From assembly GCF_036021035.1 (NCBI RefSeq), contig NZ_CP107930.1, forward strand, positions 4,736,006 through 4,800,005: a stretch of 64,000 nucleotides of DNA, read 5' to 3'. A program made the position numbers and the translations under genes. Shown piece after piece: positions 28,991 through 45,830 of the stretch (position 1 is its first letter; the number at the start of each line of letters is the position of its first letter). Under the pieces are notes generated by a model, which was given only the letters and a program-made list of their open reading frames with translations, ran no database searches and was not told where the DNA came from. This DNA is from Kineococcus sp. NBC_00420 (GTDB lineage: Bacteria > Actinomycetota > Actinomycetes > Actinomycetales > Kineococcaceae).

Positions 28991-29542
28991 TCAGGTCGTG
29001 GTGCCGTCGTCGGTCCCGCCACTCGTCCCGTCCGTGGTCCCGTCGGTGGTTCCGCCAGTCGTCCCGTCGGTGGTCCCGTCCTGCTGGTCGAGCTGCCCGC
29101 CCGAGCCGTCGCTCAGGTCCGGCGGTGCGCCGAACCGACCGGTGGAACCGTCGAGCTGTCCGGGGAACTGCCCGGTCGTGCCGGGGACGAGCTGGCCCGT
29201 CTGCCCCGTCGGCGACGTCGCCACACCTCCCGCGTTCGCGTGCCCGATGGCGTAACCGCCGGCCCCGCCGCCGACGAGGAGGACCAGTCCGGCACCGGTG
29301 AGCGCGAACGGCATCCAGCGCCTGCGACGGGTGGGGGCAGCGCCACCGGGGGCGAGCGGCGTCGCGGCCCAGTAGCTGTGCGGCCAGACCGGCGCGGTCG
29401 AGGGACCGGTCGTGGGACCGGTCGTGGCCAGGGCGGGGGCGCCGGTGAAACCGATCGGGCTCGTACCGCTGGGGACCACGGTGCCCTCGACGGGCTGGTC
29501 GCGGCGGTGGTCGTCCTGCGGGCCACCAGGGGTGTGGTTCAT
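28991..29542 (-). CDS. Single-pass membrane protein with Gly/Thr/Asp-rich tail
   Basis: A 183-residue protein of unknown function. The first 75 residues are hydrophilic and Pro/Thr/Gly-rich. One membrane helix follows (FALTGAGLVLLVGGGAGGYA) after a basic RRRR stop, then an extracellular tail rich in Gly, Thr, Gln and Asp. The tail ends in a repeat of the form DGTTxGTT, encoded by 12-base-period DNA. ATG follows GAGGAGG. It is convergent with the PucR gene and divergent from the aldehyde dehydrogenase operon. The tail is low-complexity and might extend into the cell wall; no partner is apparent. Confidence 0.75.
   Translation of the reverse strand: MNHTPGGPQDDHRRDQPVEGTVVPSGTSPIGFTGAPALATTGPTTGPSTAPVWPHSYWAATPLAPGGAAPTRRRRWMPFALTGAGLVLLVGGGAGGYAIGHANAGGVATSPTGQTGQLVPGTTGQFPGQLDGSTGRFGAPPDLSDGSGGQLDQQDGTTDGTTGGTTDGTTDGTSGGTDDGTTT
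28994..29085 (-). repeat. Low-complexity coding repeat (DGTT-type tail)
   Basis: Degenerate repeats of GTCCCGTCGGTG-like units on the plus strand encode the Gly/Thr/Asp-rich C-terminal tail of the membrane protein. Confidence 0.6.
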
Positions 29543-31149: not shown

Positions 31150-32627
31150 CCCCGGGACGCAAGCGCATCGCCCTCGGGGTGTTCGAGATGATCAACCCCA
31201 GCAACGGCATGCCGACCTGGACCCACCCGGGCGGTCGCGGTGACGACTGGGACGACCTGGGCTACTGGATCCGGCTCGCCCGGACGCTGGACCGCGCGGG
31301 GTTCGACTTCCTCTTCTTCGCCGACACCTACGGCTACCCCACGATCGGGGGATCGCTGCCCGTGGAGGTCGCGGCGCACGGCCTGCAGTTCCCCGCGCTC
31401 GACGCCATGCTCGCGATCCCGGCGCTGGCGACGGCGACGGAGCGGCTGGGTTTCGTGGTGACCTCCCCGACGACGGTCGAGCACCCCTACGCGACGGCCC
31501 GACGGTTCGCGTCGCTGGACCACTACACCCGCGGACGGATCGGCTGGAACGTCGTGACCGGCTCGTCGCAGTCCACGACGGACGGGTTGTTCGGCGTGGC
31601 CGCGTCGGGGACGCACGACTCGCGCTACGACGTCGCCGACGAGTTCGTCGACGTGTGCCTGCAGTTGTGGCAGGGCGGCTGGGAGGACGGTGCGGAACTG
31701 CGGGACCGTGGCGCCAACGTGTACGCCGACCCGGCCCGGCTGCACCGCACCGAGCACTCCGGGAACGCGTTCCGGGTGTCGGGGCAGTTCGCCGTCGCCC
31801 CCTCCGCGCAGCGCACCCCCGTCCTGTTCCAGGCCGGGACCTCGGCCCGCGGCCGGGCGTTCGCCGCGCGCAACGCCGAGGCCGTCCTCATCCAGGGCCA
31901 GACGATCGCGCAGGCCGGGGCGCACGTCGCCGACATCCGCGCCCAGGCCGTCCGGCACGGGCGGCGGCCCGACGACGTGAAGGTCATCACCGGGGTGACC
32001 GTGACCGTGGCGGAGAACCCCGCCGCCGCGCGGGAGAAGCGCGCCGAGCTCGACGCCTGCTTCGCCGTGCGGGACGCGGCCGTGGTGTTCGCCGGTTTCA
32101 CCGGCCTCGACCTCCGCGAGGTCGACCCCACGACCCCGCTGACGGCGTTGCCGCCCAGCGACTCCGGGCAGACCCTGGTCAACCGCTTCGTCCGGCCCGG
32201 CGAACCCGTCCCGACCGTCGGGCACGTCCTCGACGACTTCCGGCGCAAGGCGATCCGGGGGTTCCAGGTCACCGGTTCCCCCCCGGAGGTCGCCGACGAG
32301 CTGACCGCCATCGTCACCGGCAGCGACGTCGACGGGTTGATGCTCGAACCGACGTTCGGCGGCCAGGAGTGCTACGAGGAGTTCATCGAGCTCGTCCAGC
32401 CGTTGCTGCGCGACCGCGGTCTGCTCGGCGAGTCTTCCGGCCCCACGACGACAGGAGCCTCCGGCCCCACGACGACAGGAGCCTCCGGCCCCACGACGAC
32501 AGGAGCCTCCGGCCCCACGCTCCGCGAGAGGCTGTCCGGTCGTCCCGGTGGCCGGCTCGCACCGACCCACCCGGGGAGCCGGTTCTCGGTCCCCGGCCCC
32601 GCGAAGATCGAGGAGACGAGCGTATGA
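31146..32627 (+). CDS. LLM class flavin-dependent monooxygenase (NtaA/SnaA/DszA type)
   Basis: A 493-residue luciferase-like monooxygenase of the NtaA/SnaA/DszA group: WDDLGYWIRLARTLDRAGFD, FLFFADTYGYP, TVEHPYATARRFASLDHYT, RIGWNVVTGSSQSTTDGLFG, and FQAGTSARGRAFAARNAE. Such enzymes use reduced FMN from a partner reductase (not encoded here) to cleave C-N or C-S bonds or hydroxylate. GTG overlaps the ALDH stop. The C-terminal 60 residues are an extension outside the family core and include SGPTTTGA three and a half times, encoded by perfect 24-bp repeats. The extension is dispensable-looking and may vary between strains. Confidence 0.88.
   Translation: MTPGRKRIALGVFEMINPSNGMPTWTHPGGRGDDWDDLGYWIRLARTLDRAGFDFLFFADTYGYPTIGGSLPVEVAAHGLQFPALDAMLAIPALATATERLGFVVTSPTTVEHPYATARRFASLDHYTRGRIGWNVVTGSSQSTTDGLFGVAASGTHDSRYDVADEFVDVCLQLWQGGWEDGAELRDRGANVYADPARLHRTEHSGNAFRVSGQFAVAPSAQRTPVLFQAGTSARGRAFAARNAEAVLIQGQTIAQAGAHVADIRAQAVRHGRRPDDVKVITGVTVTVAENPAAAREKRAELDACFAVRDAAVVFAGFTGLDLREVDPTTPLTALPPSDSGQTLVNRFVRPGEPVPTVGHVLDDFRRKAIRGFQVTGSPPEVADELTAIVTGSDVDGLMLEPTFGGQECYEEFIELVQPLLRDRGLLGESSGPTTTGASGPTTTGASGPTTTGASGPTLRERLSGRPGGRLAPTHPGSRFSVPGPAKIEETSV
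32436..32519 (+). repeat. Perfect 24-bp tandem repeat, 3.5 copies
   Basis: The unit begins TCCGGCCCCACGACGACAGG and is 24 bases long; three identical copies and a 12-base partial copy lie in frame, encoding SGPTTTGA. Perfect identity suggests recent expansion. Confidence 0.95.
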
Positions 32628-40128: not shown

Positions 40129-41955
40129 TCAGAGACCGAGGTCGCCCTCGAACTCGCCGGCCTCGATGCGCTTCTTCACGGTCTGCAGGTAGCGGGCCGC
40201 GTCCGCACCGTCCACGACCTGGTGGTCGTAGGACAGCGCCAGGTACATCATCGAGCGGATCGCGATGGTCTCCTGCCCCTCGGCGTCGGTGAGGACGACC
40301 GGACGCTTGACGATCGCGCCCGTTCCGAGGATCGCGACCTGCGGGGCGTTGAGGATCGGGGTGTCGAAGAGCGCCCCGATGCTGCCCGTGTTGGTGATGG
40401 TGAACGTGCCGCCGGACAGGTCGTCCGGGGTGATCTTGTTCGACCGGGTGCGGGCCGCGAGGTCGGCGATCTTGCGGGCCAGGCCACCGAGGTTGAGGTC
40501 CCCGGCGTTCTTGATCACCGGGGTGATCAGGCCCTTGGGGGTGTCCACGGCCATCGAGACGTTCTCGGTGCCGTGGTAGACGATGTTCTCGCCGTCGATG
40601 CTGGCGTTGAGCGAGGGGTGCTGCTTGAGCCCCTCGACCGCGGCCTTCACGAAGAACGGCAGGAACGTCAGCTTCGCGCCCTCGGTCGCGGCGAAGTTGT
40701 CCTTCGCCCGCGCCCGCAGCCGGGCGACCCGGGTGACGTCGACCTCGATGACCGTCGTCAGCTGCGCGGAGTTCTGCAGCGAGTCCTTCATGCGCTGGGC
40801 GATGACCTTGCGCAGGCGCGACATCTTCTCGGTGGTGCCGCGCTTGGCGGACACCTCCACCGTCGCGGCGGGCTTGGCTGCGGGCTTCTCGGCCGCAGGG
40901 GCCGGGGCCGGGGCCGCAGCGGCCTTCGCGGCGGCCGCCGCCTTGTCCGCGGCCTCCTGCACGTCCTGCTTGCGCACGCGGCCACCGACACCGGTGCCGG
41001 TGAGGGAGGAGAGGTCCACCCCGAGGTCCTTGGCCATCTTGCGCACCAACGGGGTCACGTAGGTGCTGCCACCGGTGGCCTCGGCCGCGGCCGGAGCCGC
41101 CGGCTTCTCCGGGGCGGGAGCGGGGGTGGGTGCCGGAGCGGATTCCCGGGCCGGAGCGGCCTCGGGTTCCTTCGCGGCCGGCGTCGAGGGCTGGGTGGCC
41201 TGCTCGGCCTGCGACTGCGCGGTCTCGCGCTCCGCGACCTCGTCGGCCAGGGACTCCTCCCGCGGCGACTCCTGCGGCGCGGGGGTCTCCTCCTGCGGGG
41301 CCGGGGACTGCGCGGAGGCGTCGCCGATGCGGGCGAGGTCGGCGCCGACGTCGGCCGTCTCGTCCTCGCCGACGAGGATCTCCAGCAGGGTGCCGGCGAT
41401 CGGGGAGGGGATCTCGGTGTCGACCTTGTCGGTCGAGACCTCGAGGAGCGGTTCGTCGACCTCGACGCTGTCCCCGACGGCCTTGAGCCAGCGGGTGACG
41501 GTGCCCTCGGTGACGGACTCACCGAGCGCGGGCATCTTGACGGGCTCGCCACCACCGGAGCCGGCGGAGGGCGCAGCAGCCGGGGCCGGGGCGGACGGGG
41601 CCGCGGGTTCGGGCTCCGGTGCGGGTTCGGGCTCCGGTGCGGGTTCGGGCTCCGGCGCGGGTTCCGTGCTCGACTCCTCCTGCGGCGCCGGCGCGGACTC
41701 CCCACCGCCCTGCTCGCTCGCCTCACCGATGCGGGCCAGGTCGGCGCCGACGTCGGCCGTCTCGTCCTCGGGCACGAGGATCTCCAGCAGGACACCGGCG
41801 ATCGGCGAGGGGATCTCGGTGTCGACCTTGTCGGTGGACACCTCCAGCAGCGGTTCGTCCACCTCGACGGTGTCACCGACCGACTTCAGCCACCGCGTGA
41901 CGGTGCCCTCGGTCACGCTCTCACCGAGAGCGGGCATCTGCACCGAGTTCGACAT
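40129..41955 (-). CDS. sucB: Dihydrolipoyllysine acyltransferase, 2-oxoacid dehydrogenase E2
   Basis: A 608-residue E2 component. Two lipoyl domains (each with [14 protein letters not shown] around the lipoylated Lys, near residues 43 and 180) are joined by Pro/Ala/Glu linkers. An E3/E1-binding domain ([20 protein letters not shown]) and a C-terminal catalytic domain ending [17 protein letters not shown] follow. It transfers acyl groups from the lipoyl arm to coenzyme A within the 2-oxoglutarate or pyruvate dehydrogenase complex. ATG follows GAGGAG. It lies 64 bases downstream of lpdA (E3) and is co-transcribed with it. No E1 gene is in the window. Confidence 0.95.
41603..41665 (-). repeat. 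18-bp coding repeat in the SucB linker
   Basis: Three copies of an 18-base unit (plus strand GCGGGTTCGGGCTCCGGT, last base varied in copy three) and a partial fourth encode the PAPEPE linker between the lipoyl domains. Confidence 0.85.
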
Positions 41956-42019
41956 GTCTTCGGTTCTCCTCACGGACGTTCTCCGGCGCCCGGAGGACGC
42001 CGCGGGTTTCAGTTTCGGG

Positions 42020-43399
42020 TCAGGAGTGGGAGTGCAGCGGTTTCCCGGCCAGCGCCAGGAACGCCTCTCCGACGGCCTCGTTCTGGGTGGGGTGGGTGTG
42101 CACGAGGGCGGCGACGTCCTCGGGGTAGGCCTCCCAGTTCACGATGAGCTGCGCCTCGCCGACCTGCTCGCTCATGCGGGAGCCGACCATGTGGACGCCC
42201 ACGACGGGGCCGTCCTTCTGCCGGACCAGCTTGACGAAACCGGTTGTGCCGAGGATCTGGCTCTTGCCGTTGCCCCCGAGGTTGTACTCGAGGACGTCGA
42301 CGTCACCGAACTTCTCCCGGGCCTTGGCCTCGGTGAGGCCGACGGAGGCGACCTCGGGCTCGCAGTAGGTCACCTTCGGGATGCCGAGCTCGTCGACAGG
42401 TTTCGGGTCGAGACCGGCGATCTCCTCGGCGACGAAGATGCCCTGGGCGAACCCGCGGTGGGCCAGCTGCAGGCCGGGGACGATGTCGCCGACGGCGTAG
42501 ACGCCGGCGACGTTGGTCGCGAGGCGCTCGTCGGTGAGGACGAACCCGCGGTCCATCGTGATGCCCTGTTCCTCGTAGCCGAGGCCGGCGGTGTTCGGAC
42601 CACGACCGACGGCGACGAGCATGAGGTCGGCGTCGAAGGTCTTGCCGTCCTCGAGGGTGACGACGACACCGGAGTCGGTCTGCTCGACCCCCTTGAAGCG
42701 GACGCCGAGGGAGAACGTGATGCCGCGCTTGCGGAACGCGCGCTCGAGGGCCTTGCTGGCCGCCTCGTCCTCGAGGGGGACCAGGTGCGGGAGGGCCTCG
42801 ACGATCGTCACGTCGGCACCGAAGGAACGCCACACGCTCGCGAACTCGACGCCGATGACCCCGCCGCCGAGGACGATGACCTTCTCGGGCACCGAGTCCA
42901 GGCCGAGGGCCGTCTCGCTGGTCATGATCCGGCCACCGATCTCGAGGCCGGGCAGGCTGCGGGAGTAGGAACCCGAGGCCAGGACGACGGACCGGCCCGT
43001 GTAGCGCTGACCGTCGACCTCGACGGTGTTCTTCGCGACGAGCTTGCCGGTCCCGGAGATCAGGTCGATCTTGCGGGACTTCACGAGCCCCTGCAGACCC
43101 TTGTAGAGGCGCGCGATGACGCCGTCCTTGTACTTGTTGACGCCCGCCATGTCGATGGACTCGAAGGAGGCGCGGACCCCGAAGGTCTCCGACTCCCTGG
43201 TCGTGTCGGCGACCTCGGCGGCGTGCAGGAGGGCCTTGGTCGGGATGCACCCGCGGTGCAGGCAGGTCCCTCCGAGGAGGTCCTTCTCCACCAGGGCCAC
43301 CTTCAGGCCCAGCTCGGCGGAACGCAGTGCGGCGGCATAGCCCCCACTACCTCCCCCGAGGATGACGACGTCGTACTGCTGCTCGGCGGCACCTGCCAC
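42020..43399 (-). CDS. lpdA: Dihydrolipoyl dehydrogenase (E3)
   Basis: A 459-residue FAD disulfide oxidoreductase that reoxidises dihydrolipoamide on SucB and reduces NAD+. The FAD motif [20 protein letters not shown], redox disulfide [19 protein letters not shown] motif [36 protein letters not shown] and the catalytic His-Glu pair in [14 protein letters not shown] are all intact. GTG has CAGGAGC upstream. It is the first gene of lpdA-sucB. In other actinobacteria the same E3 may also serve glycine cleavage or branched-chain complexes. Confidence 0.97.
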
Positions 43400-43523
43400 G
43401 AAATGCTCCTGAGGTCGGCTGTGCTGGCGACTGCTCCGTCGCGATCCTCTCACCACGTCCCGCACGCAGCGCGAGGGGGTGTGTGAGCGAGCGGTGACGC
43501 TGGGGGGCAGGGCTGGACGCACG

Positions 43524-43555
43524 ACAGCGCCCGGTCCCGGGGGAGCAGGCGCTGT
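43524..43555 (-). terminator. Possible terminator after RKES-repeat gene
   Basis: ACAGCGCC pairs with GGCGCTGT (8 bp, 16-base loop), extended by GCAC/GTGC outside, 48 bases beyond the gene's stop. Confidence 0.45.
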
Positions 43556-43602
43556 GTGCGGGGGGTTCGGTTCGTCTGGACCGGCAGGTCTGGAGGAGCG
43601 GT

Positions 43603-43992
43603 TCAGCGCTCCTTCTCGGAGGTGACCGATTCCTTGCGGTCCACCGCGGACTCCTTGCGCAGGGTCGCGGATTCCTTGCGGGCGACCGTGGACTCCTTGC
43701 GCTGCGTGCTGGATTCCTTGCGGGCGACCGTGGATTCCTTGCGCTGGGTCGCGGACTCCTTGCGGTCGACCGTGGACTCCTTGCGCTGCGTCGCCGATTC
43801 CTTGCGCTCGACCGTCGAGGTCGCCTTCAACCCGGGGGCCACCTTGGCGGTCGTGAGGGTCGCGGACGGGGCAGCCGACGCGACGGCCGCCGAGGCCAGA
43901 CCGCCACCGGCCAGGACGGCGGTGGCCGCGAGACCGGCGGCGAGACGCGCGAGGCGGCGGGAGGAGCGGGACGGGATGGCGGTGCTGGACAT
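43603..43992 (-). CDS. Secreted heptad-repeat protein (nine RKES repeats)
   Basis: A 129-residue exported protein not assignable to a known family. The signal peptide (SSRRLARLAAGLAATAVLAG, then ASAAVASAAP) is followed by about 20 spacer residues and then nine consecutive seven-residue units of the form RKES(A/T/S)(T/V)(Q/D/A/L), alternating between ATQ-like and TVx-like versions so that the real period is 14 residues. It ends EKER. The mature protein is highly charged with no cysteine or aromatic residue. The reading strand is supported by GGAGGCACC before the ATG and by the signal peptide. It is monocistronic between lpdA and pepA. Function unknown. Confidence 0.8.
   Translation of the reverse strand: MSSTAIPSRSSRRLARLAAGLAATAVLAGGGLASAAVASAAPSATLTTAKVAPGLKATSTVERKESATQRKESTVDRKESATQRKESTVARKESSTQRKESTVARKESATLRKESAVDRKESVTSEKER
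43631..43806 (-). repeat. 21-bp tandem coding repeat, nine copies
   Basis: TCCTTGCG recurs on the plus strand at 43631 and then every 21 bases through 43799, nine times without a break in register. It encodes the RKES core on the minus strand. Confidence 0.95.
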
Positions 43993-44011
43993 GGTGCCTC
44001 CGTGACGAGAG

Positions 44012-44029
44012 CCCCGGTGCACACCGGGG
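44012..44029. promoter_or_regulatory. Palindrome in the RKES gene leader
   Basis: CCCCGGTG-CA-CACCGGGG, 8-base perfect arms, 19 bases upstream of the ATG and just before its ribosome binding site. It could be an operator or an mRNA hairpin that limits translation. Confidence 0.4.
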
Positions 44030-44265
44030 AGCTGTGCGATGTACCGAACCGGTCGGCGTGGTGACGCCCCCGAACTAGGTCGTCACCGAGAGCATATAGC
44101 TAGTTGCAGAGAGTGCACGAGTTGTCTCGGAAATGATCACTCGATCAGCAGGCCGGGGCTTCTTCGATCATGGAAACCGTCGGTGAACAGCCTCTGATGC
44201 AGAGGTTCCCGTTCCCAGAACGTTTCACCACGGGAATCGGACCGAGAAGCACCGGAATGCCTCAT

Positions 44266-44298
44266 CGGGGCCGCAGCCCTTTCCGGGGAACGGCCCCG
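44266..44298 (-). terminator. Possible terminator after pepA
   Basis: CGGGGCCG pairs with CGGCCCCG (8 bp, 17-base loop), 26 bases beyond the pepA stop. Confidence 0.4.
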
Positions 44299-44324
44299 CA
44301 GTGCGTCCCGGGCCCCGGCCGGGC

Positions 44325-45824
44325 TCAGCGCCCGGCGTGGTCCTCGGCCAGCGCGACCAGGGTCCGCACCGCGACACCCGTCCCGCCGCGGTGGGTGTAC
44401 CCCCACGGCTCACCCGTGGCGAAGGCCGGACCGGCGATGTCCAGGTGCGCCCAGGGGATCGCGGTCCCCGCGGCGGAGTCGCCGACGAACTCGCGCAGGA
44501 AGACCGCCGCCACGAGCATCCCGCCCGCCCGGTCGCCGATGTTGGCCAGGTCGGCCACGGGGGAGTCCAGCGTCGCCCGCAGCTCCTCGGGCAACGGCAT
44601 GGGCCAGAACGACTCCCCGGCCCGTTCGGCCGCGGCGAGGACCGCGCTGCGGAACTCCTCGTCGTTGCCCATGATCCCCGAGACCCGGTTCCCCAGGGCG
44701 ACGACCTGGGCGCCGGTCAGGGTGGCCACGTCGACGATGGCGTCAGGACGTTCGGCCGAGGCGGCGTCGAGCGCGTCACCGAGGACGAGCCGCCCCTCGG
44801 CGTCGGTGTTCAGGACCTCGACCGTCGTCCCGCCGTGCATCGTCAGCACGTCGGAGGGGCGGATCGCGGTGCCGGAGGGCATGTTCTCCGCGATGGCCAG
44901 CCAACCGGTGACCTTGACGGGGAGCTTCAGGTCGGCGACCGCCCGGACCGCGGCCAGCACGGCCGCGGCACCCGACATGTCGCTCTTCATCGTCTCCATG
45001 CCGCCCGCGGGCTTCAGCGAGAGACCGCCGGAGTCGAAGGTGATGCCCTTGCCGACGAACGCGAGGTGGCCCTTGGCCTTGGCCGGTGCGTGCTCCACGA
45101 CGACCAGGCGCGGGGGACGCGAAGACCCCTGGCCCACACCGAGGATGCCGCCGAAGCCGCCGTCGGCCAGGGCCTGCTCGTCCAGCACGCGGACGGTGAG
45201 CGAGGTCCCCGCCGCGGCCTGCAGCGCCGCCGCGGCGAGGTCGGCCGGTGCGAGGTCGCCCGGTGCCGTGTTGATGAGGTCGCGAGCCGTCGCGACGGCC
45301 CGGGCGAGGACCTCGGCCCGCTCGACCGCGGCGCGGAAGGTCTTGTCCCGGGGCTTGTCGACCAGCAGCGTGACCTCGGCGACCGGTTCACGCTCGGCGG
45401 CCTTGTAGCGGGTGAAGGCGTAGGCACCGAGCCCGGCGCCCTCGGCGACAGCGGCCAGCGTGGCGGCGTCGGGGGTGGGCAACGCGAACGCGACCCGGCC
45501 CTTGCCGGTGAGGGCGCGCACGGCCTGACCCGCGGCGCGGCGCAGGGTCTCGTGGTCGGGGGCGGTGCCGACGCCCACGAGTGCGACCAGGGGCGTGGCG
45601 AGCCCGGTCGTCCCGGGGACGAGGTGCACGGTGCCCGGTTTGCCGTTCGCACCCAGGGCCAGCGCGGCCTCGGCCAGCGCGGAACGCGTCGCGCGGGGGA
45701 GGTCGTCACCCCCCAGGACCTCGGGGGCGCCGGGACGCTTGCCGGTCGCGGGAGCCAGTCCCAGGACCAGCGCGTCGACCGAGACGCTCTTGACGGACTT
45801 GCTGCTGAGCAGGAGACGTGACAC
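44325..45824 (-). CDS. pepA: Leucyl aminopeptidase (M17)
   Basis: A 499-residue cytosolic M17 aminopeptidase that removes N-terminal residues from peptides, using two metal ions. Metal and catalytic motifs are VGKGITFDSGGLSLKP, MKSDMSGAAAVLA and the signature NTDAEGRLVLGDAL. The start at 45824 (MSRLLLSSKSV) is chosen because it lies exactly 6 bases after a TAGGGT box; a GTG one codon upstream would leave only 3 bases. The gene is divergent from a GNAT gene with 22 bp between start codons. Length and order are normal for the family. Confidence 0.95.
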   Translation of the reverse strand: MSRLLLSSKSVKSVSVDALVLGLAPATGKRPGAPEVLGGDDLPRATRSALAEAALALGANGKPGTVHLVPGTTGLATPLVALVGVGTAPDHETLRRAAGQAVRALTGKGRVAFALPTPDAATLAAVAEGAGLGAYAFTRYKAAEREPVAEVTLLVDKPRDKTFRAAVERAEVLARAVATARDLINTAPGDLAPADLAAAALQAAAGTSLTVRVLDEQALADGGFGGILGVGQGSSRPPRLVVVEHAPAKAKGHLAFVGKGITFDSGGLSLKPAGGMETMKSDMSGAAAVLAAVRAVADLKLPVKVTGWLAIAENMPSGTAIRPSDVLTMHGGTTVEVLNTDAEGRLVLGDALDAASAERPDAIVDVATLTGAQVVALGNRVSGIMGNDEEFRSAVLAAAERAGESFWPMPLPEELRATLDSPVADLANIGDRAGGMLVAAVFLREFVGDSAAGTAIPWAHLDIAGPAFATGEPWGYTHRGGTGVAVRTLVALAEDHAGR

Positions 45825-45830
45825 CACGGC

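Follow-up and report, generated by a model that had tools for sequence, protein, structure and literature searches.

A lineage-restricted Kineococcus gene between pepA and lpdA, coding for tandem repeats behind a signal-like peptide

A gene for a short repeat protein (129 amino acids; 43603..43992, stop included, minus strand) was found in the window, that is, the whole 64-kb stretch of Kineococcus DNA analysed here. Judged from its recurrence in nine of the ten other Kineococcus genomes, it is a genuine, conserved and lineage-restricted gene whose product carries an export signal (recognised by eye). The product constitutes a new family as far as the searches go, of a kind that is familiar in general terms. 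What stays the same among the homologues is a multivalent [RK]KE motif, set on a spacer that varies, together with the E-x-x-R terminus. As to function, we tentatively favour a lineage-specific, disordered polyampholyte that would bind the wall or the extracellular polysaccharide (EPS) coat by many weak contacts, a role we regard as possible rather than probable.

The open reading frame runs on the minus strand from an ATG at 43992 to a TGA at 43603, with the putative ribosome-binding site GGAGG (43997..44001) four bases before the ATG. The following parts were distinguished: a signal peptide of residues 1–40 (43873..43992) with a probable cleavage site VASA/APSA, both assigned by eye and with an N-terminus alike in the homologues; a 22-residue linker of the mature protein (43807..43872); nine RKESxxx heptads encoded by a 21-bp repeat (43618..43806), delimited by repeat scan, pattern search and comparison within the genus; and a C-terminal tail EKER (43606..43617), an instance of the E-x-x-R end common to the homologues. 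No LPxTG motif, lipobox or wall domain was seen by eye. An earlier note on this DNA had described the mature protein as almost entirely repeats and devoid of hydrophobic residues; the repeats in fact make up 63 of about 89 residues, the linker preceding them, and V or L is present in six of the nine units. The neighbouring genes on the minus strand are, in order, pepA (44325–45827), the repeat-protein gene, lpdA (GTG start at 43399, set by comparison with relatives; stop at 42020) and a sucB-like gene (40129–41973); these three names were recognised from the sequence and not by a family scan. A second lpdA-like copy, 60% identical to that of the window, was observed in G008 (L128, contig 2, 39514–40881).

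Within the array, TCCTTGCG occurs at 43631, 43652, 43673, 43694, 43715, 43736, 43757, 43778 and 43799, thus nine copies exactly 21 bp apart, just as had been noted before; elsewhere in the window it was met twice on the plus strand and never on the minus strand. A pattern of three RKES-type units gave seven matches in the window and none in 100 dinucleotide shuffles, and Tandem Repeats Finder (TRF) returned periods of 21, 42 and 84 bp over the array. The 21-bp periodicity is far beyond chance. The spacers of the window protein alternate with a period of 14 residues (ATQ/TVD/ATQ/TVA/STQ/TVA/ATL/AVD), and seven different unit sequences are found among the nine units.

Upstream of the gene, a –10-like TATGCT (44091..44096) was found, preceded at a distance of 16 nt by a –35-like GTGCAC (44113..44118). 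TATGCT and GGAGG are identical in all ten Kineococcus genomes that carry the gene, and GTGCAC is exact in seven of them. Downstream lies a hairpin with no U-run (43517..43562), a probable terminator, which outdid every one of 30 mononucleotide shuffles in 10/10 genomes (by a narrow margin in G000 and G007); four of these downstream stretches, picked by eye, gave z values of –4.67 to –6.10 against dinucleotide shuffles. With promoter-like elements on one side and a terminator-like hairpin on the other, the gene looks like its own transcription unit. A scan for consensus promoters and terminators, which requires TTGACA and a T-run, found none. Right after the promoter stands a conserved inverted repeat GTGACG...CGTCAC (44061..44086), weakly supported as a structure, which is possibly a hairpin at the 5′ end of the transcript. 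Regulation by a leader RNA was rejected: the whole leader folded no better than shuffles in all four cases tested (z 0.25 to 2.74), and two-sided change was seen in only two of 15 predicted pairs. A regulon sharing the leader motif was likewise dismissed, the motif being a single copy in the genome at up to three mismatches, and three Rfam matches in 43300–44500 (E 2.9 to 4.6) were put down to chance.

The homologues in the nine other genomes lie between pepA and lpdA, and the gene has the same orientation in 10/10 genomes when that of the window is included; K. rubinsiae (L105) is among the carriers. A strong lpdA match was obtained in ten of 11 Kineococcus genomes and none in G002, where identity reaches no more than 46% for pepA and 34% for lpdA, so that the G002 assembly probably lacks the locus. 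A signal-like peptide, [RK]KE[SA]-type units, an E-x-x-R end and the pepA–lpdA site were found together in all ten locus-bearing genomes. Start, stop, signal-like N-terminus and promoter recur in ten genomes, which bears out the previous assignment of a signal peptide followed by repeats on this strand.

The ten proteins contain 102 units, in arrays that are gap-free and regularly spaced, with no double gaps; a search for [RK]KE[SATV] served to locate the units, and K and E therefore stand in every unit by definition. In first position, 76 units have R and 26 have K; in fourth position, 83 have S, 17 have A, and one each has V and T. The earlier note had proposed a comparison of repeat number among relatives, and this number was found to range from 6 to 16: 16 units in G008, 13 in G001, G004 and G009, nine in G000 and G007, eight in G005 and G006, seven in G010 and six in G003. 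The spacing is seven residues in seven species, seven then eight in G009, six then seven in G010, and eight and five in alternation in G003; in G001, Pro occurs in ten of the 13 units. All ten proteins end in E-x-x-R (EKER in six, ERER in two, and EWLR in G001 and G009). In an unrooted tree of lpdA, read with the sister-genus genome G011 as outgroup, G003 and G010 are outermost, followed by G001 with G009 and then by the six species whose heptads are strictly RKES (supports of the splits, 100/100 and 85/93); the strict RKES heptad accordingly belongs to one clade. Since the spacing varies among species, both the strict heptad and the alternation over 14 residues are to be read as local features: the seven-residue unit and the super-period that had been remarked upon are present in the window protein, and neither is kept through the genus.

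That the protein rather than the DNA is maintained is indicated by the use of both TCN (77) and AGC (6) codons for Ser in the units; the Glu codons also vary (GAG 86, GAA 16) with the residue unchanged. For the closest pair, G005 and G006, dN was 0.08 and dS 0.30 over the whole gene, and pN was 0.11 and pS 0.20 per site in the repeats only (23 differences). The gene is under purifying selection by these comparisons, the signal being weaker in the repeats alone. When all six frames of the G005/G006 repeats were compared, pS was clearly above pN in the sense frame only. This bears on the opposite strand, where a frame at 43556–44005, encoding DSLRxTV repeats, is open across the array and weakly resembles a coiled-coil model in Pfam (E 0.00014; 22.7 bits, the cut-off being 40). 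It is extremely improbable that this frame is the true gene: its chains differ among relatives, promoter, ribosome-binding site, start and signal all lie on the other strand, and in no antisense frame does pS exceed pN in the repeats (one frame ties at 0.13). Units are more alike within than between species in 7/7 species with enough heptads (three of the ten species, with too few, were left out), which is, on this comparison, the mark of repeat turnover.

The window protein came nowhere near a curated cut-off in Pfam or NCBIfam, with no Pfam match at 0.01, in keeping with the former statement that no family with this unit is known; a sequence search of the PDB gave a best E of 0.3. Scattered matches were obtained among the 11 members of the family: to RNase Y in three members in Pfam (N-terminal model, best 3.2e-9) and six in NCBIfam (best 1e-6), and further to bZIP, SMC and ice-binding beta-roll models, with curated cut-offs given for the first member only. 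All of these are taken as reflecting charged-repeat composition. When 297 genomes of the order were searched with a profile, 13 had matches at 1e-5, 11 of them family genomes. The borderline matches in G037 and G250 were dismissed on reading, one protein being NlpC/P60-like and exported and the other coiled and of membrane type (names given by eye), and no convincing relative of the window protein was seen in the 285 other genomes of the order. A partial screen of the region upstream of lpdA (82 genomes with a match, narrowed to 30 loci, six of them from the family) showed no like gene in the remaining 24 order-level loci; it covered frames with a hydrophobic stretch only, and only 900 bases where pepA was not found. 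In three of these loci (L129, L138 and L152) another secreted low-complexity protein with HGxYVS...VSEAAR was observed upstream of lpdA (L152 ~217–861, L138 ~130–936, L129 around 555); these proteins are TETS-, TDDAES- or KKAE-rich, and the L129 copy has an in-frame stop. A search of 12 family genomes, run with no positive control, gave no match that would link the HGxYVS gene to the repeat family.

An exact-spacing pattern run against a collection of 84,980 species returned 59 stretches, three of them from Kineococcus. Among the other 56, no shared leader was seen in the matched frames, long frames being viewed around the match only; the pattern, by this measure, finds the gene in Kineococcus only (three records), in a collection from which entries close to the window may be left out. 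KKEA heptads were observed in unrelated exported-looking proteins of Azonexus (L071, CAKKEAS) and of a Verrucomicrobiota metagenome-assembled genome (MAG; L065, KKEAAPA), which weakens the uniqueness of the unit itself; the unit is thus less singular than first thought. The L071 and L065 proteins, like those of Kineococcus, have a signal-like N-terminus (by eye) followed by heptads, but they differ in their leader and in a Cys-rich or lipobox-like context (by eye), and are taken as convergent. In the literature search, no paper was found with RKES plus Kineococcus or with RKESTVA, and no experiment on the repeat protein. A copper proteome of K. radiotolerans has been published (PMC2928746).

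The repeats of all ten Kineococcus proteins have a charged fraction of 0.39–0.57 and a Uversky value on the disordered side; taken with the loose spacing and the Pro-bearing units of G001, this points to an unfolded chain. Both the Pro units and the range of spacings (5, 6, 7 or 8 residues) argue against a rigid heptad fold, and so lend indirect support to the extended chain suggested in the earlier note. A folded repeat is very unlikely, be it a helical coiled coil or a beta-roll of the ice-binding type in which each turn would take 14 residues. The alternation in the window protein would suit it, as would the matches to PF21300 in two of 11 members (E down to 0.0011) and to the RNase Y N-terminal model in three of 11 (down to 3.2e-9), and such weak matches of some relatives to helical or beta-roll models would speak against disorder. 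However, the matches vary from member to member and are absent from the window protein at 0.01, most relatives have no 14-residue alternation, and the periods of 5–8 residues, the Pro residues and the paucity of hydrophobic residues for a core are ill suited to such a fold. The PF21300 beta-roll has regular xxNxVxG-type loops of constant length, unlike the Kineococcus periods, and V is missing in many units.

The disordered coat-binding strand that we favour would work as follows. After probable Sec export and cleavage at ASA/APS, the mature chain would comprise a short linker, 6–16 [RK]KE[SA]-type tetrapeptides on spacers of 1–4 residues and the E-x-x-R end, and would stay extended outside the cell as a multivalent linker. 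Each basic-basic-acidic unit might make one weak ionic contact with acidic groups of the wall or of exopolysaccharide, so that the conserved tetrapeptide would be the functional bead and the copy number would set avidity; loose spacing (5–8) and variable repeat number (6–16) would be expected of beads on a flexible chain. The protein may thereby coat or cross-link the polysaccharide holding Kineococcus cells in clusters. According to one report, K. rubinsiae cells cluster through extracellular polysaccharide (PMC7472656), and on account of this clustering a strand bound to EPS or wall is taken as the likeliest role, with the partner presumed. In the Lys-rich surface tails of the HBHA C-terminus type, a basic low-complexity sequence likewise stands at the cell exterior, and the K. 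siccus units KKEAAPL are similar; the Kineococcus unit differs in being tandem with an acidic residue in each copy, and no HBHA-type match was obtained in the Pfam and NCBIfam scans of the window protein and the members.

The high charge and low hydropathy (repeat GRAVY –0.75 to –2.32) would also suit an extracellular desiccation protectant of the LEA (late embryogenesis abundant) type, whose hydrophilic and disordered chain would retain water or protect surfaces as cells dry out. The Kineococcus species names siccus, deserti and aridisoli refer to dry habitats. LEA proteins and hydrophilins are likewise hydrophilic, charged, repetitive and predicted to be disordered; the repeat protein, in contrast, has a signal-like peptide, no 11-mer and almost no Gly in its repeats, and no LEA model was matched in Pfam scans of the window protein and 11 family proteins. 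Hydrophilins are defined by more than 6% Gly, against 0–2.1% in the repeat and tail part of all ten proteins. A protectant of this type is considered unlikely.

The strongest objection to coat binding comes from the sister genus. In G011, the ORF between pepA and lpdA (L111:1021–1272; 83 residues from the ATG) encodes a signal-like peptide and EWPRA(M/T) hexads up to the last residue, ending in EWPR; its leader holds GTGACGG followed by an inverted repeat (by eye). The locus resembles that of Kineococcus in its site, in the signal-like peptide, in the GTGACGG of the leader and in the EWPR end, but KE units are absent. A sequence search of G011 with the window protein missed this ORF (only E 0.044 elsewhere in G011), so that the case for orthology is built on the position of the ORF, its leader, its signal-like peptide and its E-x-x-R end; the profile match to G011 is circular, the G011 sequence being itself in the profile. 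The net charge of the repeats is +4 to +16 in Kineococcus and 0 in G011; cationic charge is thus no invariant of the locus, and a role in binding anions generally would leave part of the locus unaccounted for.

Such a complete replacement of the repeats at one site would be natural for a dispensable, low-complexity exported protein of little sequence-specific function, in which charged repeats just keep the chain soluble. The variable repeat number and spacing agree with this, as does the unrelated secreted low-complexity gene upstream of lpdA in three of the 24 order-level loci. We nevertheless give dispensability only a small chance, for it sits poorly with unbroken [RK]KE arrays, an identical –10 element and ribosome-binding site, and a terminator-like hairpin, each in 10/10 genomes.

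A further reading is a tandem precursor of short peptides, cleaved after basic residues into KESxxxR heptapeptides that would act as a lineage-specific signal (xxEWPR in the sister genus). Every protein consists of a signal-like peptide and repeats divided by basic sites, with R at the end; the residues between RKES blocks differ by species, and the greater likeness of units within species (7/7, with 3/10 left out) is in the same sense. Tandem peptide-hormone precursors of the fungal and animal type likewise combine a signal peptide with repeats divided by dibasic pairs, but the Kineococcus units are not identical. Release of such peptides is rated as distinctly improbable: the units differ even within one genome (seven kinds among nine in the window), homogenised units also result from neutral repeat turnover, and no receptor or exporter gene was recognised among the immediate neighbours. 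In addition, an acidic E follows the dibasic site, and an acidic residue in that position is poor for trypsin-like cutting. A more specific form, in which a rapidly rewritten precursor with similar leader, signal peptide and basic C-terminus would furnish these non-filamentous actinomycetes with an extracellular code of peptides that is specific to each species, appears doubtful at roughly one chance in ten.

The orphan gene described here is conserved and carries control signals of its own; the chemistry of its unit is fixed while spacing and number are free. The natural series at this site (from 6 up to 16 units, spacing of four kinds and one total rewrite) would allow one to ask what a disordered extracellular repeat requires for its function, and under the coat-binding reading the protein would give a handle on the coat of Kineococcus, a genus known to withstand radiation and drought. 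Two further repeats were observed in the window: a perfect 24-bp tandem repeat of 3.5 copies (32436–32519) near the 3′ end of a plus-strand ORF, giving ASGPTTTG units, and a 12/36-bp repeat (28997–29080) in a minus-strand ORF that includes a membrane-like stretch, where it encodes a C-terminal tail of the TDGTTGG type.
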